Below, piece by piece: positions 19,713 through 31,939 of a stretch of 33,850 nt of DNA; within the stretch, counting starts at the first letter, position 1, and each line of letters starts with the position of its first letter. The stretch is from the NCBI GenBank assembly GCA_017881265.1, contig JADGRA010000076.1, positions 1-33,850 on the forward strand. Direction: 5' to 3'. The position numbers and the translations under genes are program-made. This DNA comes from Myxococcaceae bacterium. GTDB taxonomy: Bacteria; Myxococcota; Myxococcia; Myxococcales; Myxococcaceae. The notes beneath the pieces were generated by a model that saw nothing but the letters and a program-made list of their open reading frames with translations, was not told where the DNA came from and did not search any database.

Positions 19713-20354
19713 ATGGCAGACAAACGCGTCCGGACTCCCAGGAGACAGCCCGCACGGCGTGCCGCCCCCGCGTTTACTGTCCCGTCCGGGGACCTCCTTG
19801 CCCCGCAGTCCGAAGTCCCCCGGGGAGGCCTCGGCACGGACCGCTCGCGCCACGTCGAGTCCGTCACGGAGTTGTCCTGGGCGAGCTTCGACATGGCCCT
19901 GCAAGCGCTGGCCCGCGCCATTGCCCGCAGCTTCGTCCCGGAGGCCGTCCTGGGCGTGGCCCACGGCGGCGTCTTCGTCGGCGGCGCCCTGGCCTCGGCC
20001 CTCGGCGCGGACTTCTACCCGGTGCGCATCAGCCGCCGGAGCCGCATGCGCACCGACATCGGGCGGCCGCGGCTTTCCGGCACCATTCCCAAGGAGTTGA
20101 AGGGCCGCCGGGTCCTCGTCGTGGACGACGTGTCGGCCAGTGGAGAGACGCTGGAGCTCGCCAAGGCGCTGGCCCGCAAGGCCGGCGCGCGTGCGCTGCG
20201 CACCGCCACGCTGGTGTGCCGCACCGACGGCTACGCCCCGGACTTCACCGCGCTGAAGGCCGACACCCTCCTCGTCTTCCCGTGGGACTACGCCCCCGTC
20301 ACGGAGGATGGACGCTTCGACGCACGGCCGGTGCCACGGGGTCGGCCCCGGTGA
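19713..20354 (+). CDS. phosphoribosyltransferase (purine-salvage-like)
   Basis: A 213-residue type I phosphoribosyltransferase. The PRPP-binding signature is [14 protein letters not shown] with both acidic residues. The upstream loop [20 protein letters not shown] and the late [10 protein letters not shown] resemble archaeal-type xanthine/guanine phosphoribosyltransferases, so a nucleobase (xanthine or guanine) plus PRPP reaction is likely. The substrate is not proven. A 45-residue N-terminal extension rich in Arg/Pro precedes the fold and is not family-typical. The start is ATG 19713 (AGGGG 8 nt upstream) or GTG 19704. Its stop TGA overlaps the selB GTG (GTGA), implying translational coupling. 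Confidence 0.85.
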
Positions 20355-22276
20355 TTGTCGGCACCGCCGGACACGTCGACCACGGCAAGACGTCCCTGGT
20401 GAAGGCCCTCACCGGCATCGACACCGACCGGCTGCCCGAGGAGAAGCGCCGCGGCATTACGCTGGAGCTGGGCTTTGCCCACCTCGTCCTTCCGGACGGC
20501 ACCGTGGCCGGCGTGGTGGACGTGCCGGGGCATGAGCGCTTCGTCAAGGCCATGGTGGCCGGCGCGGGCGGGGTCGACCTGGTGCTCCTCGTCATCGCCG
20601 CGGATGAGGGCGTCATGCCCCAGACGCGCGAGCACCTGGATATCTGCCAGCTGCTGGGCGTGCGCGCGGGCGTGGTGGCCCTCACCAAGGCGGACCTCCT
20701 TCCCGGCCTTGGCAGCGACTGGAGCGCGCTGCTCGAAGCCGACGTCAGCACCCTGTTGGCCGGCACCGCCATGGAGCAGGCCGAGGTGGTGGAGGTGTCG
20801 GCGCGCACCGGCGCCGGACTGCCGCAGCTGCTAGCCGCGCTCGGGCGCGCCGCGGCCAAGCTGCCCGTGCGCAACGCGGACGGACCCCTCTTCCTCCCGG
20901 TGGACCGCGCTTTCACCCTCAAGGGCTTCGGCACTGTCGTCACCGGCACCTTGCTGTCCGGGACGCTGTCCCCCGAGGAGTCCGTCTCGCTGTTACCCGG
21001 GCTCCCCGGCCCCTTCCGCACTCGTGCCGTGCAGGTGCACGGGGCGCCCGTCCCCCGCGCCGTCGCCGGGCAGCGCACCGCCGTCAACCTACCGGCGGTG
21101 GCCGCCCCCGAGGTGCGCCGGGGCATGGTGCTCACGCGCTTTGAAGAACTGCCGGAGACGCGCAGCCTGGACGTGGAGCTGGCGCTGCTGGGTGCCGCCG
21201 ACGCCCCGCTGGGGCGCCGGCGCACGCTGCTGCTTCACCTGGGTACGGCCCAGGTGGAAGCACGGGTGCGCCTGTTGGACGTCGACGTCCTGCAGCCCGG
21301 GGAGACGGCGCTCGCGCAGCTCCGGCTGTCTGCCCCGCTGGCAGCCCTGCCCGGCCAGCGCTTCATCCTCCGCGGACCCCGGCCGCTGCCCGGGCGCGGG
21401 GCCACGCTGGCCGGCGGCCGAGTCCTCACCCTGTCCGCGCCCCGCCGTCGGCGCGGGGCGGGACAGCAGCTGGAGCCCATGCGGGGCGAGGACGGGGAGG
21501 CCCGCGTGCGGTGGCTGTTGCGGCAGGCGGGCTACCGCGGGCTCAGCGCCCCGGAGCTCTTCGTTCGCGCGAGCCTGCCGCAGAAGCAACTCGGCCGGAC
21601 GCTGGAAGTCCTCAGCAGCCGCGGCGAGGTGCTGCTGGTGGACCGGGAGCGCCGGCTGTACCTCTCGAGTGACGTCTTCCTGGGGCTCCTGCAGCGGGCG
21701 CTGTCTGTGCTGCAGGCCTTTCATGAGCGGGAGCCGCTGAAGGACGCCCTCGGACGCGAGGAGCTCCGCCAGCGCCTCTCCAGCGCGCTCGAGCCGCGGC
21801 TGTTGGGGCGCCTCGTCCAGCAGCTGGTGGAGCGCAACCAGGTGGAGCTGGTGCCGCCGGACGGCGTCCGGCTGCGTGGCCGCGGACGCAGCCTCACCCT
21901 GGACGAGGAGGCAGCGCGCTCCAAGGCGGTGGCCTCGCTGGCCGCGGCCGGCCTTGCCCCGCCCACCCTCGCCGAGCAGGGCCAGGCCCTCGGCCTTCCC
22001 CCGGCCCGGGTGGCGGCCCTCCTCGAGGGCCCCCTCCGGGAAGGCAGCGTCGTGAAGGTGACGGAGGAGCTCTACTTCCACGCCGCGCCGCTGGCTGCGC
22101 TGCGGACCGCGCTCCTGGCCCACCTGGCACAGCACCGCGAAATTTCCACGCAGGCCTTCAAGCAGCTGGTGGGGCAGAGTCGGAAATTCGTCATTCCCCT
22201 GTCCGAGTATTTCGACCGGGAGAAAGTCACCCTGCGTCTAGGCGAGCGCCGCGTCGCGCGTACCAGCCACCAGTGA
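20351..22276 (+). CDS. selB: selenocysteine-specific elongation factor SelB
   Basis: A 641-residue GTPase delivering Sec-tRNA to UGA codons by binding the SECIS element in the mRNA. G1 GHVDHGKT (7-14), G3 DVPGH (57-61) and G4 TKAD (112-115) are intact. The EF-Tu-like beta domains 2 and 3 contain [13 protein letters not shown]. From about residue 380 to the end are the winged-helix repeats ([55 protein letters not shown]) that bind SECIS RNA. The GTG start at 20351 overlaps the stop of the phosphoribosyltransferase and places the GTPase domain directly at the N-terminus, as expected. The genes selA, selD and selC (tRNA-Sec) are not in the window. The upstream frame to 19130 is a shadow of hslO and the phosphoribosyltransferase. 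Confidence 0.93.
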
Positions 22277-22679: not shown

Positions 22680-23438
22680 TCAGTGCGCCAGGGCCTGCGC
22701 GGCCTCGCGGCGCACGTCGGGGCTGGCATCCACCAGGGCAGCCCGCAGGGCGGTTTGCACGTTGGCCGTCGTCCCGTCCCCCAACTGGCCGAGGCTGGCC
22801 ACCGCCGCCTGGCGCACGCGTACAGCCGGGTGGCGTGCTGCCTGCAGCAAGGCCGGGACGGCCCGGACGTCCCCGGTGGCGCCGAGGGCCCAGGCGGCCA
22901 TTGCGGCGACGCGCGCGTCCGCGTCTTCCAGGGCGCGCTGCAGAAGCGCGAGTCCGGAGGCGTCCGCCCGTTCCCCAAGCCCCAAGGCCGCCGCTTCGCG
23001 TTCGGCAGACTCGGCCGCGCCGAGGGCGGTGCGCAGCCGGGCAAACGCCTCCGGGCTGTCCGAGCGGCCTAGCAGCGTTGCGGCGACGCGGCGCACGCAC
23101 GCTTCGGGCGCGCCCAGGCGGCTGGCCAAAAGCGCCACGGCGTCTGGCCTGCGGACCCGTGCCTGCGCGGCGGCCGTCCAGGCGCGCGCCGCGGGCTCCC
23201 CCAGCGGCCCCATGTCCCAGCGCAGTCCGGACAGCAGCGCGTCCGCCGCCAGCTGGCACACCGGCTGCCCGGCGCGGGAGAGGCCGTCCAGCACCGGAAG
23301 GAGTTCAGCTGCCGACGGCCCGGGGGCGGCGTCGTCCGCGTCGGCGCCCACGTGCAGGTGGTGTCTGCCCGCGGCCTCGGCGTTGGCCGAGGCGAGGGCC
23401 CAAAGGGCGAGGAGCGCGAGGGCCCCGAGGCGCACCAT
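22680..23438 (-). CDS. exported HEAT-repeat protein
   Basis: A 252-residue protein with an N-terminal signal peptide (MVRLGALALLALWALASANAEA). It then has a His-rich stretch (GRHHLHVGADADDAA) and about six HEAT/PBS-lyase-like repeats (about 31 residues each, such as LQRALEDADARVAAMAAWAL and VPALLQAARHPAVRVRQAAV). The ATG at 23438 is 4 nt after the M56 stop, so it is translated with it. HEAT arrays bind proteins; being periplasmic, it may be the ligand or partner of the M56 sensor's own HEAT domain. The frame extends upstream to 23492, but the start at 23438 gives the best signal peptide. No enzyme motif. Confidence 0.85.
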   Translation of the reverse strand: MVRLGALALLALWALASANAEAAGRHHLHVGADADDAAPGPSAAELLPVLDGLSRAGQPVCQLAADALLSGLRWDMGPLGEPAARAWTAAAQARVRRPDAVALLASRLGAPEACVRRVAATLLGRSDSPEAFARLRTALGAAESAEREAAALGLGERADASGLALLQRALEDADARVAAMAAWALGATGDVRAVPALLQAARHPAVRVRQAAVASLGQLGDGTTANVQTALRAALVDASPDVRREAAQALAH

Positions 23439-23442
23439 GGGC

Positions 23443-25878
23443 CTAGTCCCTCTGGCCCAGCGCGGCGGCGGCGGCCTTGCGCACCGCCGCATCCTTGCTC
23501 TGCATGGCGGCGATGAGGGCCTGCAGCGCGCCCGCGTCGCGAATCTCCGCCAGCGCGGAGACTGCCTCCTCGCGGACGTCGGCCGAGGGGTCCTCGAGGA
23601 GTGCCTTCAGCGCTGCCACCACGGCAGGCGAGTGGGCGCCGTCCTGTAACTCCGCCAGCGCGCCCGCGGCCTGGGCCCGCACGCTGCTGCTGCGGTCCCG
23701 GGTGGCTTCCACCAGGGCTGGCACTGCCGCGGCCGAGCCGAGGCTGCCCAGCGCCCGCACGGCCTGCGTGCGGACGGTTTCGTCGTCGTCCTTCAGGGCG
23801 CTGGTGAGGGCCGGCAGGGCCGAGGCGTCCTGGTATTCGCCGAGGGCCTCCACCGCGGTGGCCCGCACTTCCGGGGAATTGTCCTGCACCAGTCGGGTGA
23901 GGGCGGCCAGGGCCCGTTTGTCCCGGCGGGCGGCCAGTCCCTGCACGGCGGCGAGGCGGACGTGGACGTCCGTGTCGCCGAGGGCGCCCACCAGCGGCTC
24001 CACGGCCTCCGGTGCTTCGCTTTGGCAGGCCAGCGCCTCGGCCGCGGCGCGGCGGACGCCGGGGCTGGCGTCCTTGAGGGCCTTGGCCAGCGCGGGGACG
24101 GCCCGCGCGTCCTGTAGGGCGGCCAGGGCCTGCACCGCGGCGAGGCGGACAGGCGCCTCGGCGTCGGACGTCGCGGCCACCAGCCCCTGAAGGGCGCGGG
24201 CGTCGGCCAGCTGTCCGAGGGACTCCGCCGCGGCCTCCCGGACACCGGCGTCGGAGTCCTTGAGGGCCTTCACCAGCGCGTCCACGGTGGCCGCATCGGC
24301 CTGGGTGGCTGGCCGGACGCCGGGGTGGACGTGGACTGCGCGGGGGTGGACGGAGAGGCGGCCAATGTCCACGCGGCTGCGGGCGAGGTCGATGCGTGCC
24401 TTGGCCAGGGCCTTCTTCACCTCGGCGTCCCAGGGGCCTGCCGGCATGGCGACGGGTGCCGACGGCGGCAGCGGGGCGGCGGGCGGCGTCGGCGCCACCG
24501 GCGCGGCGGGCGCTGTCGGTGCGGGGGGCGGGACTGGCGTGGCTTGGGCCAGCGCGCTGGGCCCCAGGCCCAGGGCCGCCTGGCGGGCGCCGCGGCGCGC
24601 CTCGTCGGCGACACGGCGCAGCGCGGTGAGGGGATTGTCCCCGGCGGCCGGCGGCGGCGTCACCGCCTCCACTGCCACAGCCGGGGTGGGGCCGGCCATC
24701 ACGGCCTCGCTGGCAACCGGACTCCCCTCGAACCAGCCCGCGGCCGGCGCCGCGCGCACGCCGGGCACCACCGCCACCGTGAAGAGCAGGAGGAGAGCGA
24801 AGGCCAACAGGTGCCAGGAGCGGCGGGGCTCCAGCTGGATGGCGCTTGTCTGAAGAAGCCGCTGCACCCGCGCCACCAGCAGGCTGGGGCGCTCTGCCAT
24901 GCCGGCCAGCGGGACTTCCCGCTCGGGGGCGCCTTCCAGCCACCTTGCCACCGAGGCCAGACCGCGGGCGATGGGCAGGCCCGACCCGTTCCGCACGGCG
25001 GCCCAGTCGTCGCACAGGTACTCGGCCACCTCCTGCATGTTGCGACGGGCGAGGTGGTTGAGGGGCTGGAAGAAGAGGAGCTGCTCCAGCGTCGTCCCGA
25101 GCAGCAGCCACAGCGGGTCCTTGCGCTGCAGGTGGGCCAGCTCATGGGCGAGGACGCTGCGCTGCTGGGCGTCGTCCAACTCGGTGAGGACGGCCGCGGG
25201 CAGGCAGATTTCACCCAGTCCCAGCGCCACCGGACTCTTCAACCCCTCCGCCGTGGTGAGCTGGACGCTGGCCGTGCGCCCGGCCTCGCCGCACAGCCGG
25301 TCGAGTTGCGCGCGCAGCTGGGGCAGAAGCACGGGGGCCCGCTGTCCGAGGCCCTCCAGCACGCGGGCGCGCGCCACCGCCAGCCGGAGCAGCAGCGCGG
25401 AGGCCACCGCCACCCAGGCCATGAAGAAGATGGAGGCCACCCGCACCTGGGGCAGGGCCATTTCCGCCGGGGACTCGGCCTGCGCCGCCACCGGCGGTGG
25501 CAGGCCCGCGTTCGCCCGCGGGGCGACCGTTTCGACGGGCAGCAGGACGCTGGCCGGTGCCTCCAGCGGGCGAGGCGTGGCTGCCCTGGGAAGCGCCATG
25601 GGGTTGGAGACCGGGGCAGCCGCCGGAGCGGGCACCTCGAGGCGGAGGCCCCAGGGCGCAAGCCCCAGCCCCAGCTGCAGGCTGGCCGTGACAAGCCCGC
25701 CGACCAGGGCGCCCCGCCACAGCACGTCCCGCAGCCGCAGGGAACGCAACAGGGACAAGCGCTGGAGGGCCCAGATGCCGGCGATGAGGACGGTGGAATG
25801 CAGCGCGTAGGTGAGGAGCCAGGCAGCTCCCACCGAGGCGAGCGTCTCGCCCCACTGCAACAAGTCAGGTGTCGTCAT
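23443..25878 (-). CDS. M56 (BlaR1-type) membrane protease fused to nine HEAT repeats
   Basis: An 811-residue membrane protein. Residues 10-85 and 140-175 hold the first membrane helices, and a fourth lies at about 354-376. The cytosolic zinc-protease core has HELAH at 245-249 (two zinc His and the catalytic Glu) and E286 in EYLCDDWA as third ligand, as in BlaR1/MecR1 (M56). In those proteins a penicillin-binding domain follows the last helix on the outside. Here it is an Ala/Pro linker (about 380-480), then nine 31-residue HEAT repeats (532-811). No SxxK or KTG penicillin-binding motif is present. The ATG overlaps the blaI gene by 14 nt. By family logic, ligand binding outside would trigger cleavage and loss of BlaI repression; the ligand here is unknown. 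Confidence 0.9.
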   Translation of the reverse strand: MTTPDLLQWGETLASVGAAWLLTYALHSTVLIAGIWALQRLSLLRSLRLRDVLWRGALVGGLVTASLQLGLGLAPWGLRLEVPAPAAAPVSNPMALPRAATPRPLEAPASVLLPVETVAPRANAGLPPPVAAQAESPAEMALPQVRVASIFFMAWVAVASALLLRLAVARARVLEGLGQRAPVLLPQLRAQLDRLCGEAGRTASVQLTTAEGLKSPVALGLGEICLPAAVLTELDDAQQRSVLAHELAHLQRKDPLWLLLGTTLEQLLFFQPLNHLARRNMQEVAEYLCDDWAAVRNGSGLPIARGLASVARWLEGAPEREVPLAGMAERPSLLVARVQRLLQTSAIQLEPRRSWHLLAFALLLLFTVAVVPGVRAAPAAGWFEGSPVASEAVMAGPTPAVAVEAVTPPPAAGDNPLTALRRVADEARRGARQAALGLGPSALAQATPVPPPAPTAPAAPVAPTPPAAPLPPSAPVAMPAGPWDAEVKKALAKARIDLARSRVDIGRLSVHPRAVHVHPGVRPATQADAATVDALVKALKDSDAGVREAAAESLGQLADARALQGLVAATSDAEAPVRLAAVQALAALQDARAVPALAKALKDASPGVRRAAAEALACQSEAPEAVEPLVGALGDTDVHVRLAAVQGLAARRDKRALAALTRLVQDNSPEVRATAVEALGEYQDASALPALTSALKDDDETVRTQAVRALGSLGSAAAVPALVEATRDRSSSVRAQAAGALAELQDGAHSPAVVAALKALLEDPSADVREEAVSALAEIRDAGALQALIAAMQSKDAAVRKAAAAALGQRD

Positions 25879-26266
25879 GGGACTTCTCCAGGGCCGCTTC
25901 GGCGCGGGCGATGAGGGTGCGCACCCGGTCCAAGTCCCCGGGGCTGACGCTGCCAGCGTCGAGCAGATGGCTCATGAGGGCGGCGACGTCTCCGCCGAAG
26001 AGGGTGTCGGTGAGGCCAGCCACCATGGAGGCGCGCACCGCACTCTCTGAGACGCGCGCGCGGTAGACGTATTGCCGGGCCCGGGTGGTGTGGGAGACGA
26101 CCCGCCGCTTCTCCAGCCGGCTGAGGAGGGTAGCCACGGTGGTGGGAGCCAGCTCGCGCTCCGGCCGCAGCGCCTCCACCACCTGCGCCACGGTGGCCTC
26201 GCCATGCGTCCACAGGACGCGGAGCAGCGCCAGCTGCAAGTCAGTGAGTTGGGCGGTGTCCGTCAT
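25865..26266 (-). CDS. BlaI/MecI/CopY-family repressor
   Basis: A 133-residue winged-helix repressor. LTDLQLALLRVLWTHGEATV, then PTTVATLLSRLEKRRVV, form the wHTH with the recognition helix; the C-terminal helix pair (about 75-133) dimerises. In the family, the repressor is cut by an M56 protease, here encoded immediately downstream with a 14-nt overlap. The ATG at 26266 has GGAGGG a few nt upstream; a longer frame begins at 26296. It is the first gene of a three-gene operon, under an operator-containing promoter at 26307-26333. Target genes beyond this operon are unknown. Confidence 0.93.
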   Translation of the reverse strand: MTDTAQLTDLQLALLRVLWTHGEATVAQVVEALRPERELAPTTVATLLSRLEKRRVVSHTTRARQYVYRARVSESAVRASMVAGLTDTLFGGDVAALMSHLLDAGSVSPGDLDRVRTLIARAEAALEKSHDDT

Positions 26267-26306
26267 GGGCCCTCCAGCAGTCACGGGAAGAAGCATGACG
26301 ACATGT

Positions 26307-26333
26307 GTAATACTACGACTGTAGACGTGTCAA
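26307..26333 (-). promoter_or_regulatory. BlaI operator and promoter of the M56 operon
   Basis: On the minus strand: a perfect -35 TTGACA (26328-26333), a 15-bp spacer, and a -10-like TATTAC (26307-26312). The spacer and -10 carry the dyad TACTACGACTGTAGAC (26311-26326 on the plus strand), with core arms CTAC/GTAG. This matches the BlaI/MecI operator style (TACTAC-N4-GTAGTA), as known in mycobacterial BlaI. Binding between -35 and -10 would block polymerase, so autorepression is predicted. The short spacer makes the exact -10 uncertain. Confidence 0.7.
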
Positions 26334-26347
26334 TTCACACCGTCACT

Positions 26348-26416: not shown

Positions 26417-27994
26417 CTACTGGCCGAAGAGGTGGCCGGCCGGGCCTAACCAGCGCGTCACCAAGCCGGGCGCCACGCCCAGCAGCACCACGGCGGCCGC
26501 GGTGACGGCCAGGGCGACTTCGGTGCCCCACTGGTGCGGGGCCAGCGTGGCCTGCTCCGGCGGCGGGCGCATGAACATGTACACCACCACCCGCAGGTAA
26601 TAGTACGCGCCCACCGCGCTGGTGAGGACGCCCACCACCACCAGCATGAGGAGGCCCGAGTCCACCGCGGCCCGGAACACCAGAAGCTTCCCCATGAAGC
26701 CGGCCAGCGGGGGAATGCCCCCCAAGGACAGCATGAAGGCCGCCATCGCCACGGCCCAGCCCGGCCGGCGCTGCGCCAGGCCGCTGAAGCGGTCCACGTC
26801 CCAGCCGAAGCCGCGCGTCTCGTCCTCCCGGCGCTCCAGCGCCCCCACCACCCCGAAGGCGCCCACCGCCGTGACGGTGTAGGTCAGAAGGTAGAAGAGG
26901 ATGGCGCGCAGGGCGTCGGCCTGGTCCGCGCGGGTGCCAGCGGCCAGCACCGTCACCCCCGGCAGCCCGGCGCGGGCCTGAGGGACGAAGAGGGCCGTCA
27001 CCCCCACCAGCAGGTAGCCGGCGTGGGAGATGGAGGAGTAGGCCAGCATCCGCTTCACGTTGCGCTGTGGCAGCGCCAACAGGTTGCCCAACACCATGGT
27101 GAGGATGGCCAGGGTGGAGAAGAGCAGCACCGGCACTTGCGGTTCCACGTGCCGCCCGATGGCCAGAAAGACGCGCACCAGGGCAGCGAAGGAGGCCGCC
27201 TTCACCCCGACACTCATCAGGGCCGTCACCGGCGTGGGGGCGCCCTCGTACACGTCCGGGGCCCACATGTGAAAGGGCACCGCGGCCACCTTGAAGGCGA
27301 GCCCCGCCGCCACCAGCGCCATGCCGCAGTACACCACCAGCCGCCGGTCCGAGCTGGGGTCGGCGAAAATGCGGCCCAGCTCCGAAGCCAGCCCGGCCAG
27401 GTGCGTCGTCCCCGACGCGCTGTAGAGGAGCGCCGCGCCGTAGAGAAAGAGGGCCGAACTGAAGGCGCCGAGGATGAAGTACTTGAAGCCAGCCTCGGTG
27501 GGGCGCGGACCGCGGCGCAGGTAGGCCGCCAGCGCGTAGGTGGAGATGCTCATCACCTCCAGGCTGACGAAGAGCATGATGAGCTCGTTCGACAGGGCAA
27601 GCAGACTCATGCCGGCCGTGGCGAAGAGGAGCAGGGCGTAGAATTCGCCGCGCTCCGCCTGCCGCTGGCGCAGAAAGCCATCGGAGAGCAGCGCCGTCAG
27701 GGCAAGCCCCAGACACGCCACCGCGGTGATGAAGCTGCTGAAGGGGTCGAGCACCGCGAAGGCGAGAAAGACCGCGCGGGCCGGCTCGAACGTGAGCGAG
27801 AGGGCCAGGCCGCCGGCCAGCACGGCGGCGCCCACCGTGAAGACCGCTTGGTACGTCCGGACGCTCTCCCCCTCGCGCTCGGTGGCCTTGAGAAACACCT
27901 CGCTCAGCAGGAGGACCATGCCGGCCAGCGACAGCACCACCGCCGGCCAGAGCGGCAGAAAGTCTGCGGCGGTGAGGTTGGGGATGGGGGGCAT
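26417..27994 (-). CDS. nuoN: NADH-quinone oxidoreductase subunit N
   Basis: A 525-residue, about 14-helix antiporter-like subunit of complex I. Typical segments: FVSLEVMSISTYALAAYLRR (helix-5 Glu of the proton path), FKVAAVPFHMWAPDVYEGAP, and VTALMSVGVKAASFAALVR with the conserved Lys. It works with M and L in proton pumping by the membrane arm. It is last in the operon as transcribed, 37 nt after nuoM. Start ATG 27994 (MPPIPNLTAADFL), no clear ribosome-binding site, probably translated by reinitiation. Length is normal for NuoN. Confidence 0.95.
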   Translation of the reverse strand: MPPIPNLTAADFLPLWPAVVLSLAGMVLLLSEVFLKATEREGESVRTYQAVFTVGAAVLAGGLALSLTFEPARAVFLAFAVLDPFSSFITAVACLGLALTALLSDGFLRQRQAERGEFYALLLFATAGMSLLALSNELIMLFVSLEVMSISTYALAAYLRRGPRPTEAGFKYFILGAFSSALFLYGAALLYSASGTTHLAGLASELGRIFADPSSDRRLVVYCGMALVAAGLAFKVAAVPFHMWAPDVYEGAPTPVTALMSVGVKAASFAALVRVFLAIGRHVEPQVPVLLFSTLAILTMVLGNLLALPQRNVKRMLAYSSISHAGYLLVGVTALFVPQARAGLPGVTVLAAGTRADQADALRAILFYLLTYTVTAVGAFGVVGALERREDETRGFGWDVDRFSGLAQRRPGWAVAMAAFMLSLGGIPPLAGFMGKLLVFRAAVDSGLLMLVVVGVLTSAVGAYYYLRVVVYMFMRPPPEQATLAPHQWGTEVALAVTAAAVVLLGVAPGLVTRWLGPAGHLFGQ

Positions 27995-28031
27995 GGCGCG
28001 CTTGCGGGGGCTAGGCTTTCGTCCTTGCGGG

Positions 28032-29723
28032 TCAGCGGGGAAGGGCCACGGCGGCGACGGGAGGCTGGGGGAGGGCCGGTGGGGCTCCCTCGATGGGAGG
28101 CACCGTGACGCGCACGTCCGCGTCCTTCACCTTCGCGGAGTCAGGCGTGCCGAGCTGCGCCCGGGCGACGAAGCGGTCGGTGGCCGGGGCGATGCGGTCC
28201 AGGAAGGGCTGGGGGGCGAGCCCCATCCACAGCACCAGCACCATGAAGGCCGAGGCGGTGAGGCCCTCGCGCAAGTCCAGGTCGCGCAAGCCGCCGTTCT
28301 CCGGCCGGTCGATGGGGCCAAAGAAAACGCGCTGCACCATCCACAGCATGTAGCTCGCCCCGAGGATGACGGTGGTGGTGGCGAGCACCGGGTAGCCGAG
28401 CCACAGCGAGGAGGCCTTGAAGGTGCCGAGCAACACCAGGAACTCCCCGACGAAGCCATTCGTCCCCGGGACGGCGATGCTCGAGAACGTCACCACCAGG
28501 AAGGAGGCGGCGAAGAACGGCATCACGCGCGCCACCCCGCCATAGTCGCTGATGCGCCGGGTGTGGCGCCTCTCGTAAAGGAAGCCAAACAGGCAGAACA
28601 GCGCCCCGCTGGACACGCCGTGGTTCAGCATCTGGTAGGCGCTCCCGCTGGCGGCCTCGGCGGTGAAGGCGAAAATTCCCAGCATGCAGATGCCCAGGTG
28701 GGAGACGGAGCTGTAGGCAATCAGCTTCTTCACGTCCTGCTGCGCCAGGCACATCAGCGCGCCGTAGACGATTCCCACCACGGCCAGCGCGACGAAGAGC
28801 GGCCGGAACTGGTAGGCGGCCACAGGAAACAGCGGGATGGCGAAGCGCCAGAAGCCGTAGGTGCCCATCTTCAGCATGACGCCGGCCAGGATGATGGAGC
28901 CCGCCACCGGCGCCTCGACGTGCGCCTCCGGCAGCCAGGTGTGCAGCGGGACCATCGGCACCTTGATGGCGAAGGCGAGCGCAAAGGCGAGGAACATGAG
29001 CGGCCCCCACGCCTGAAGCGTCAGGGCCAGCGGCGAGAGCGTGGCGCAGCCCACCCCTTGGGTACACGCGGCCAGCTGCCGGTTGGCGGACAGCAGCGAG
29101 TTGTAGATGGTGCCGTAGTCGAAGCTGCGCGCCCCCGCCGGCTGGCCGATGAAGTAGACGGCCAGGATGGCGACCAGCATGACCAGCGAGCCGAACAGCG
29201 TGTAGAGGAAGAACTTCATCGCCGCTTCCCGCCGGCGCTCCGAGCCCCACACCCCAATCAGCAAGTACATCGGGATGAGCATCGCCTCGAAGAAGACGTA
29301 GAAGAGGACGAGGTCGAGCGAGACCAGCGTCCCCATCATCGCCGCCTGGATGAGCAGCAGCGAGATGTGGAACTCCTTCACGCGGTCGTGAATGAATTTC
29401 CAGGACGACAGCACCACCACCGGGCCCAGAAAGCCGGTCAGCAGTACGAGCGAGACGCTCAGTCCGTCGACGCCGAGGTGGTAGCTGATGCCGAACTCCG
29501 CACTCCATGCCCGGCGCACCTCAAGTTGGAACTCCGCCCCCTTCGGGTCGAAGACGAGGTAAGCCACCGCCGCCAGCGCGAGGTCGACCCCCATCGCCAG
29601 AAGCGTCCAGGCCCGCACCTGGCCCGCCTCCTCCCGGGGAAGGAACAGCAAGAGCCCGGCCCCTAGCAGCGGCAGGAAGACGACCAGGGTCAACAGGTAG
29701 GGCTGCAGCTGGGCGGCATTCAT
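28032..29723 (-). CDS. nuoM: NADH-quinone oxidoreductase subunit M
   Basis: A 563-residue antiporter-like subunit. The helix-5 glutamate lies in FYVFFEAMLIPMYLLIG, and the lysine-bearing region in FAIKVPMVPLHTWLPEAHVE. KMGTYGFWRFAIPL and QQDVKKLIAYSSVSHLGICM are also typical. The ATG overlaps the nuoL stop by 4 nt (ATGA), giving coupled translation. The C-terminal extension (about 525-563, VTVPPIEGAPPALPQPPVAA) is Pro/Ala-rich and beyond the usual end of NuoM. All core motifs are intact. Confidence 0.96.
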   Translation of the reverse strand: MNAAQLQPYLLTLVVFLPLLGAGLLLFLPREEAGQVRAWTLLAMGVDLALAAVAYLVFDPKGAEFQLEVRRAWSAEFGISYHLGVDGLSVSLVLLTGFLGPVVVLSSWKFIHDRVKEFHISLLLIQAAMMGTLVSLDLVLFYVFFEAMLIPMYLLIGVWGSERRREAAMKFFLYTLFGSLVMLVAILAVYFIGQPAGARSFDYGTIYNSLLSANRQLAACTQGVGCATLSPLALTLQAWGPLMFLAFALAFAIKVPMVPLHTWLPEAHVEAPVAGSIILAGVMLKMGTYGFWRFAIPLFPVAAYQFRPLFVALAVVGIVYGALMCLAQQDVKKLIAYSSVSHLGICMLGIFAFTAEAASGSAYQMLNHGVSSGALFCLFGFLYERRHTRRISDYGGVARVMPFFAASFLVVTFSSIAVPGTNGFVGEFLVLLGTFKASSLWLGYPVLATTTVILGASYMLWMVQRVFFGPIDRPENGGLRDLDLREGLTASAFMVLVLWMGLAPQPFLDRIAPATDRFVARAQLGTPDSAKVKDADVRVTVPPIEGAPPALPQPPVAAVALPR

Positions 29724-31939
29724 TTGGCCAGCGCCTCAAAAATTGCATAGCCCACGCCGGCCAGCAGCCCCACCGCCATCATCGCCGCGTAGGCCTGCAC
29801 GTCCCCCGTCTGCAGGTAGCGCAACAATGACCCAATCCGCGCCGTCACCCAGGCCGTCCCGCCCACCAGCACCGTGTCGATGAGGCCCTCGTCCACCACG
29901 CGGAAGAGGCCGATGCTGAGAAGCTTGATGGGCCGAACCAGGACCGCGTCGTACAACTCATCGACGTAGAACTTGTGCACGGTGAAGGCGCGCACCGCGG
30001 CGAAGACCTCCGGTGCGGGCTTGCCAGCGCGCGCCGGGAAGACGCGCTTGTAGAGGTACCAGGCGGCCCCGCCCCCGGCCCAGGCCAACAGCAGCGCAAT
30101 CCCGAAGCCCGGCCAGGGGCTTCTCTCGGCCTCCGGCAAGAGCGAGTGCGCCTCGATGGCAAGCCTGTCGGCTACCCCGAAGACGGGCTTGAGGAACGCC
30201 TCCATCAACGTCTCCGGCTCGCCATTGGGCATCTTCAACAGCCCGGGGAAGCCGTGCGAGATGAGCGCGATGGAGAGGGCCGCCAGAATGACCAGCGGCG
30301 CCACAATCACCCAGCCACTCTCGTGGGCGTGCGGCACCTTGGCGTCCTTGGAGCGCTCGCCGGTGAACGCCAGCAGGTAGGCCCGGGACATGTAGAAGGC
30401 GGTGCACAGCGCGCCGAGCGAGCCGATGGCGAACACCGTCGGTCCCACCCACTCGTAGCCGACCAGGCGGGCGTGGAGGGCGCCGTGGAGGATGTCGTCC
30501 TTGCTGAAGAAGCCGCTCAACGGGATAATTCCGGTGATGGCCAGCGTGGCGATGCCGAAGCAGGCCGTCGTCCAGGGCATCTCCTTGCGGAGGCCGCCGA
30601 GCTTCTTGATGTTCACCTCATTGTCATTGCCGTGCATGACGCTGCCGGCACTGAGGAACAGACACCCCTTGAAGCAGGCGTGCGTCACCAGGTGCAGGAT
30701 GGCGCCCCAGAAGAAGCCGACGCCTACCCCGAGGAACATGTAGCCGAGCTGGCTGATGGTCGAGTAGGCCAGCACCTTCTTCAAATCGTCCTGGGCAAAC
30801 GCAATCAGCGCCGCGTACAGCGCGGTGAGGGCGCCCACCACCGCCACCGTGGCCATCGCCGCAGGCGACATGACGAGCAGTGGCGCCATCCGGCAGAGCA
30901 GGTACACGCCGGCTGTCACCATGGTAGCGGCATGGATGAGCGCTGACACCGGCGTCGGACCGGCCATGGCGTCCGGGAGCCAGACGTAGAGTGGCAGCTG
31001 GGCGCTCTTCCCCGCGGCCCCCAGAAGCATCAGCAGGAAGACGAGGGTGAGGGTGTGCCCGTAGGTGTGGCCCGCCAGCGGCCCGATGGGGATGTCCGTC
31101 CCGAGCATGCCCCTGCTGCCCATGGCGAGGTTGGCGGGCATGTACTGGGCGAACTCCTCCAGCACCTTGAAGTTGAGCGGCCCGGGCTCGCTCGTCGCCG
31201 CGTGCGTCCACACCGCCCGCCGCTGGGCGAAGAAGACGGCCGGCGGCTCGGTGCCGGGCGCCTTGGCGAAGGCCGTCACGGTGAGGACCAGCAACATCAT
31301 CGCCAGGAGGAAGGCGCAGTCGCCCACCCGGTTGGCGATGAAGGCCTTGCGGCCGGCCCAGGCGTTGGCGGCGTCGGTGTACCAGAAGCCGATGAGCAGG
31401 TAGCTGCACAGCCCGACGCCCTCCCAGCCGACGAAGAGGAGGACCAGGTTGTCCGCCAGCACCAGCGTCAACATGGAGGCCATGAACAGGTTGAGGTAGG
31501 CGAAGAAGCGCCAGTACCCCGCGTCGTGCTCCATGTACGCCGTGCTGTAGAGGTGGATGAGGAAGCCCACCCCCGTCACCACCATCAGCATGGTGGCCGA
31601 CAGGTGGTCGACCCACAGCCCCAAGTGCGCGCTGAAGCTGCCCGCCTGGAACCACACGCCCCAGTCGCCGGACAGCGCGAAGCGCATCGGCACGCCGTTG
31701 GCGGCCGGGGTCACAATCACCGAGGGGTCGGCGGCCACCGCCTGGAAGGCGAAGACCGACAGGCAGAAGCTCGCCAGCACCGAGGCGCAGGCCACCAGGT
31801 TGACGTAGGTGCGCCCCAGCGCCCGGCCGAAGACGCCGCACACCAGGGCGCCGAAGGCGGGCAGCGCGATGATGAGCCACAGGTTGGCGGAGAGCGCCTG
31901 CGGGTTTGCCCAGGCCTTGGTTAACCAGGTGGTGTCCAT
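29720..31939 (-). CDS. nuoL: NADH-quinone oxidoreductase subunit L
   Basis: The largest antiporter-like subunit, 739 residues, with the long lateral C-terminal helix. Motifs: LLFVGWEGVGLCSYLLIGFW (helix-5 Glu), AAGKSAQLPLYVWLPDAMAG, PTPVSALIHAATMVTAGVYL and FAQDDLKKVLAYSTISQLGY. It ends with the amphipathic lateral helix (VLVGGTAWVTARIGSLLRYL). The family is usually 600-660 residues, so this one is long; an insertion around residues 225-280 (AKAPGTEPPAVFFAQRRAVW) contributes. Start ATG 31939, 16 nt after the nuoK stop. Intact. Confidence 0.96.
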   Translation of the reverse strand: MDTTWLTKAWANPQALSANLWLIIALPAFGALVCGVFGRALGRTYVNLVACASVLASFCLSVFAFQAVAADPSVIVTPAANGVPMRFALSGDWGVWFQAGSFSAHLGLWVDHLSATMLMVVTGVGFLIHLYSTAYMEHDAGYWRFFAYLNLFMASMLTLVLADNLVLLFVGWEGVGLCSYLLIGFWYTDAANAWAGRKAFIANRVGDCAFLLAMMLLVLTVTAFAKAPGTEPPAVFFAQRRAVWTHAATSEPGPLNFKVLEEFAQYMPANLAMGSRGMLGTDIPIGPLAGHTYGHTLTLVFLLMLLGAAGKSAQLPLYVWLPDAMAGPTPVSALIHAATMVTAGVYLLCRMAPLLVMSPAAMATVAVVGALTALYAALIAFAQDDLKKVLAYSTISQLGYMFLGVGVGFFWGAILHLVTHACFKGCLFLSAGSVMHGNDNEVNIKKLGGLRKEMPWTTACFGIATLAITGIIPLSGFFSKDDILHGALHARLVGYEWVGPTVFAIGSLGALCTAFYMSRAYLLAFTGERSKDAKVPHAHESGWVIVAPLVILAALSIALISHGFPGLLKMPNGEPETLMEAFLKPVFGVADRLAIEAHSLLPEAERSPWPGFGIALLLAWAGGGAAWYLYKRVFPARAGKPAPEVFAAVRAFTVHKFYVDELYDAVLVRPIKLLSIGLFRVVDEGLIDTVLVGGTAWVTARIGSLLRYLQTGDVQAYAAMMAVGLLAGVGYAIFEALAK

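Follow-up and report, generated by a model that had tools for sequence, protein, structure and literature searches.

BlaR1 and MecR1 sense β-lactams and cleave the repressors BlaI and MecI. To our knowledge, these proteins are known almost only as drug sensors. The window analyzed here, a stretch of 33,850 nucleotides from a Myxococcaceae bacterium, carries a blaI-type gene, a gene for an M56 metalloprotease that ends in HEAT repeats, and a gene for an exported HEAT protein (the companion). What does such a switch detect, and what does it control?

Organization of the operon

The three genes form a tight operon (Table 1). The blaI start codon is the ATG at 26266, with a GGAGG Shine-Dalgarno sequence upstream. 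The end of blaI and the start of the M56 gene share 14 nt (25865–25878). The companion ATG (23438) lies 4 nt past the M56 stop codon (23443–23445), and its ribosome site AGAGGGA sits within the M56 gene. The coordinates confirm the overlap and spacing given in the original prediction. The mechanical open reading frame of the companion starts at 23492, while the start that yields a signal peptide is 23438. In the window, the cassette is flanked by a selB-like gene (20299–22276, + strand) on one side and nuoL-M-N (26417–31939, − strand) on the other. Since nuo genes in genome G082 and a selB-like gene in genome G081 are likewise found near the cassette, its position looks inherited.

Table 1. 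Features of the cassette (positions in the window)
Feature	Position	Strand	Description
blaI-type repressor gene	25865–26266	−	133 aa, winged helix, Penicillinase_R
M56 metalloprotease-sensor gene	23443–25878	−	811 aa: 4 TM, HELAH...E286 protease domain, Pro/Ala linker, nine HEAT repeats
Exported HEAT companion gene	22680–23438	−	252 aa, signal peptide, ~6.5 HEAT repeats
Nine-repeat HEAT domain, M56 protein residues 527–811	23446–24300	−	predicted periplasmic
PGVRAAP, M56 protein residues 372–378	24745–24765	−	putative signal-peptidase-like site
Operon promoter/operator	26292–26334	−	TTGAC(A) + two dyads

The arrangement resembles BlaR1/BlaI and MecR1/MecI of Staphylococcus and Bacillus (MEROPS M56; PDB entries 8EXP–8EXT) in being a repressor-sensor operon with a BlaI-family winged helix. 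Unlike in the BlaR1/MecR1 operons, the output gene encodes a HEAT protein and not a β-lactamase or PBP2a.

The protease and its membrane part

The M56 protein matches Peptidase_M56 (PF05569) with E=2e-19 and 70.1 bits (curated cut-off 31). It contains H245-E246-x-x-H249 and E286, and these residues are invariant over 32 myxobacterial M56 proteins. The catalytic residues of S. aureus BlaR1 are H201, H205 and E242 (PMC9834060), and the spacing of 37 between H249 and E286 is identical to that between H205 and E242. The list of structural matches (Foldseek) was dominated by the HEAT domain, and the M56 part was compared with BlaR1 by sequence alone.

The AlphaFold2 (AF2) model of the protein, built on the 32-sequence alignment with a mean pLDDT of 78.6, shows four long membrane helices (residues 3–40, 47–72, 139–176 and 355–375) plus the protease domain. 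These helices and the charge pattern fit the M56 layout, in which the protease sits between helices 3 and 4 on the cytosolic side; a plain hydropathy cut-off on the window's protein (P0001) finds just two strong membrane segments. As in BlaR1/MecR1, the predicted four-helix protease is followed by a variable C-terminal domain past the last helix. Unlike in BlaR1/MecR1, the loop between helices 2 and 3 and the linker are rich in Pro and Ala. The four membrane helices, the positively charged cytosolic loops and the Pro/Ala linker predict that the HEAT domain is located in the periplasm, so the objection that the C-terminus might lie in the cytosol fails on the predicted topology. The protease of BlaR1 is cytosolic and cleaves BlaI directly (PMC9834060).

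Directly after the last membrane helix, all three M56-HEAT proteins share an identical PGVRAAP sequence. By analogy with BlaR1, which has an SpsB site at Gly331 and whose sensor shedding is documented (PMC9834060), we infer that it is a signal-peptidase-like site. Both observations would suit a scheme of constitutive M56 protein turnover, with signal peptidase freeing the HEAT domain, so that sensor and companion just deliver soluble periplasmic HEAT with no ligand sensing. Simple delivery would not need the protease residues, the BlaI partner and the operator, all of which are strongly constrained, and we regard this scheme as very improbable.

The HEAT sensor domain

Counted as consecutive pairs of helices in which V-R and D positions are conserved, HEAT repeats number nine in the M56 protein and about 6.5 in the companion. 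In the M56 protein, the HEAT_2 family (PF13646) matches with E=3e-59, and the AF2 model shows 18 helices that make exactly nine repeats at residues 529–810, with pLDDT mostly above 94. Where BlaR1 and MecR1 carry a penicillin-binding domain of the class D β-lactamase-like type, these nine repeats stand instead: the M56 protein has no penicillin-binding Pfam domain, and beyond residue 527 only HEAT-type families match. It contains no K[TS]G motif, and its one SxxK string is a chance occurrence inside a HEAT repeat. The NCBIfam BlaR1 model scores only 25 bits on this protein against a cut-off of 400. Pfam, AF2 and the 32-sequence alignment confirm that HELAH and E286 are kept and that nine HEAT repeats follow, and the absence of an SxxK/KTG penicillin sensor holds as well. 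The original description of a BlaR-like switch with a HEAT sensor in place of the penicillin sensor is supported by Pfam, AF2 and the catalytic residues.

Among solved folds, alphaRep binders come nearest to the sensor domain (Z 31.6, rmsd 3.1 over 277 residues), and alphaReps are known to bind proteins. Since the HEAT solenoid of the sensor resembles them, a protein or peptide is a likelier ligand than a drug, and this protein or peptide is probably located in the envelope. Sensor and companion share their fold and repeat length with alphaRep/HEAT_2 proteins (PF13646; PDB entries 4ZV6 and 3LTJ), although alphaReps are designed proteins and not sensor domains of receptors.

The BlaI repressor and its operator

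The repressor matches Penicillinase_R (PF03965), a family with a winged helix and a dimerization domain, over positions 1–114 of 115 with E=3.8e-28 and 98.6 bits (cut-off 22.6), and it also matches the BlaI and MecI structures in the PDB. In an alignment read by eye, H100-L101 of the window's BlaI falls opposite N101-F102, the site of cleavage in S. aureus.

The promoter contains two dyads of the TACA/TGTA type, as in BlaI/MecI systems. The first is CTACAGTCGTAG (26313–26324) and the second, 14 bp downstream, is TTACACATGTCG. A TTGAC −35-like element is found ahead of the dyads, with no clear −10 element. The double dyad is kept at four loci, the three cassettes and a sister locus in genome G159, as CTACAnnnGTAG followed 14 bp on by TTACA/CTACA-nn-TGT. 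Boxes of the CTACnnnnGTAG type are also found ahead of dozens of other myxobacterial blaI genes. This sequence evidence suggests that BlaI represses its own operon through the double dyad as a putative binding site.

The 21-base core of the operator, with up to 3 mismatches, occurs at one site per genome (G000, G081 and G082), at the cassette promoter. A slightly looser form gave no more extra matches than its control; single-dyad targets would escape such a scan. Since the core occurs once per genome, the circuit seems mainly to control itself. The operator search thus favors autoregulation, with few other genes, if any, under the full operator, single-dyad targets being of a kind that it would miss. 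Mycobacterial BlaI is reported to control distant genes, the M. tuberculosis protein being described as a multi-target regulator, and the same could apply here, with the operon's own control being just feedback and the neighboring nuo or other envelope genes being the real output. In the window, nuoLMN is located just upstream of the cassette; in G082 the distance is about 2 kb, and other genes stand between nuo and the cassette. With the core found only at the cassette's own promoter in the three genomes and no excess of looser matches, we consider control of distant genes unlikely.

Distribution and evolution

The survey was made within Myxococcota; loci were read in 96 Myxococcaceae genomes and in the order, with not every M56 match taken in. 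The three-gene cassette occurs in identical order in G081 and G082, which belong to another genus of the Myxococcaceae; no other locus examined has it, so that the known carriers are two genera of soil myxobacteria. In the loci read, every M56 protein outside these three is free of HEAT repeats. The gene overlaps there are 1–4 nt. A search of the contigs of close relatives with the window's M56 protein returned the same two loci. The M56 protein of the cassette is the single one in the window's genome. Among the Myxococcota M56 proteins checked, the fusion to HEAT repeats is found only together with BlaI and a HEAT neighbor (3/3), and none was found lacking either, in line with the conserved HEAT neighbor gene that had been proposed. 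The dN/dS values of BlaI, the M56 part, the HEAT part and the companion are about 0.15–0.3, indicating purifying selection on all coding parts, with the linker relaxed. Because the gene order is the same in two other genomes and dN/dS is this low, the cassette is not a chance array.

A relative is found in another class, in genome G159, where BlaI matches with E=2e-37 and the M56 domain is 38% identical. The M56-HEAT proteins and the G159 protein form one clade with support of 100/99. The G159 BlaI-M56 pair (locus L132, 6444–8347) has a perfect double operator, and the contig ends before the C-terminal domain of the M56 protein. HEAT matches in the G159 genome are not close, the best of them scoring 55 bits.

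A Pfam scan of 29 other non-redundant Myxococcales M56 proteins found neither HEAT nor a penicillin-binding domain. Like the cassette, other Myxococcales BlaI-M56 pairs have blaI directly ahead of the M56 gene, the same type of boxes before many of them and C-terminal repeat modules. They differ from it in the modules themselves: TonB_C is found in three of the 29 proteins and most others end in helical repeats of about 25 residues or a coiled coil of LGxQQEK type. No paralogous output gene was noted in these pairs. Many other myxobacterial M56 proteins, among them those at L037, L046, L063, L105 and L074, end in a tandem repeat of about 25 residues, LSVDELVRLRxxGVDxxFIRxLRDAG, which has no Pfam match and is apparently another periplasmic sensor module. 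The C-termini at L010, L014, L016 and L028 show heptad-like LGxQQEK-type repeats, a probable coiled coil. In the blaI promoters at these four loci, the CTACnnnnGTAG boxes are accompanied by another TACA box at a distance of about 35 bp.

Several other leads were rejected. PADLOC matches to defense systems reflect generic HEAT or winged-helix similarity only. When 72,556 plasmids were searched by tblastn, all matches were to HEAT parts, and the HEAT gene on a Gemmatirosa plasmid is without M56. The viral contigs searched gave no match. A literature search (PMC) returned no article pairing 'peptidase M56' or 'BlaR1' with 'HEAT repeat'.

The exported HEAT companion

The companion matches HEAT_2 with E=7e-31. 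In its AF2 model, a signal-sequence-like helix (residues 2–23) is followed by about 6.5 repeats. It has exactly two cysteines, C61 and C114, whose positions correspond among the three orthologues, as expected for a periplasmic protein. The N-terminus following the signal peptide (window 22683–23438 for the gene) is rich in histidine in all three (GRHHLH, SHDHHPRR and GRHTHRRLH), and metal binding is possible.

Compared with its orthologues (P0006 and P0007), the companion differs in length between genera, with a range of 252 to 468 aa. In G081, the last nine repeats of the companion are collinear with the nine of the sensor, with 42% identity over 279 residues and 2 gaps, and the companion is by far the closest HEAT paralogue of the sensor domain in that genome (172 vs 63 bits). 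Judged from this collinearity, the HEAT block of the sensor was duplicated in place to give the companion repeats, as seen in the other genus. In the window species, the companion has lost about seven repeats, which is most of the sensor-matching block, and its relation to the sensor is weaker; compared with the sensor domain, another HEAT gene of this genome scores slightly higher than the companion does (58.7 vs 48.8 bits).

The original prediction took the exported HEAT protein, or else an envelope factor, as a possible signal, sensed by HEAT-HEAT contact. As a signal or co-receptor, the companion would touch the sensor domain directly and report the state of the envelope. It is always adjacent (3/3) and translationally coupled, it is predicted to share a compartment with the sensor domain, and homologous repeats could stack. 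However, its place in an induced operon makes the companion an output first, and its length is far from constant. The sensor HEAT domain also shows no conserved binding face, as 19 of 48 positions on the presumed face are invariant compared with 49 of 132 other exposed positions (three sequences only). Sensing by contact with the companion is not supported and, in our view, doubtful; it takes second place to an output role. An output role explains the companion better: its gene belongs to the BlaI-controlled operon, and in the other genus the sensor block reappears as a duplicate at the end of its product.

Proposed mechanism and implications

We propose, with about even confidence, that the cassette is a proteolytic switch of the BlaR1 type in which the periplasmic sensor has been exchanged, and that it mainly puts out a secreted paralogue of this sensor, which probably binds the same ligand. 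BlaI would hold its own operon repressed at the double dyad. The M56 protein would span the inner membrane, its zinc protease facing the cytosol and the nine-repeat HEAT domain being carried into the periplasm by the long Pro/Ala linker. Ligand binding by the HEAT domain would lead the protease to cleave BlaI, as BlaR1 does, and the operon would be derepressed. The chief product besides the sensor would be the secreted HEAT protein, which may sequester or escort what the sensor detects. Since this output is a relative of the sensor domain, and BlaR1 likewise pairs its penicillin-binding sensor with an output acting on the drug that it senses, the two HEAT proteins probably have one kind of ligand in common, and the loop may for that reason be homeostatic. 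The companion could also act elsewhere than on the ligand of the sensor. In its fullest form, the proposal describes a proteolytic transmembrane homeostat: a receptor and a secreted effector, both HEAT solenoids and paralogues of each other, would bind the same envelope protein or peptide, the effector would titrate the signal of the receptor, and the pair would have arisen by duplication of the sensor domain in place; we put this forward only tentatively.

The cassette is real, conserved and rare in the genomes seen, and it is a sensor swap on a known chassis. Because of the HEAT cassette and because none of the 29 other myxobacterial M56 proteins checked has a penicillin-binding domain, we suggest that the BlaI-M56 chassis may be a switch of general use in envelope sensing, whose periplasmic modules can be exchanged. 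With sensor and secreted output being paralogous HEAT proteins, the question of the ligand is accessible to direct pull-down. If the homeostat reading is true, the cassette would be a protein-sensing counterpart of the β-lactam BlaR1/BlaZ loop.
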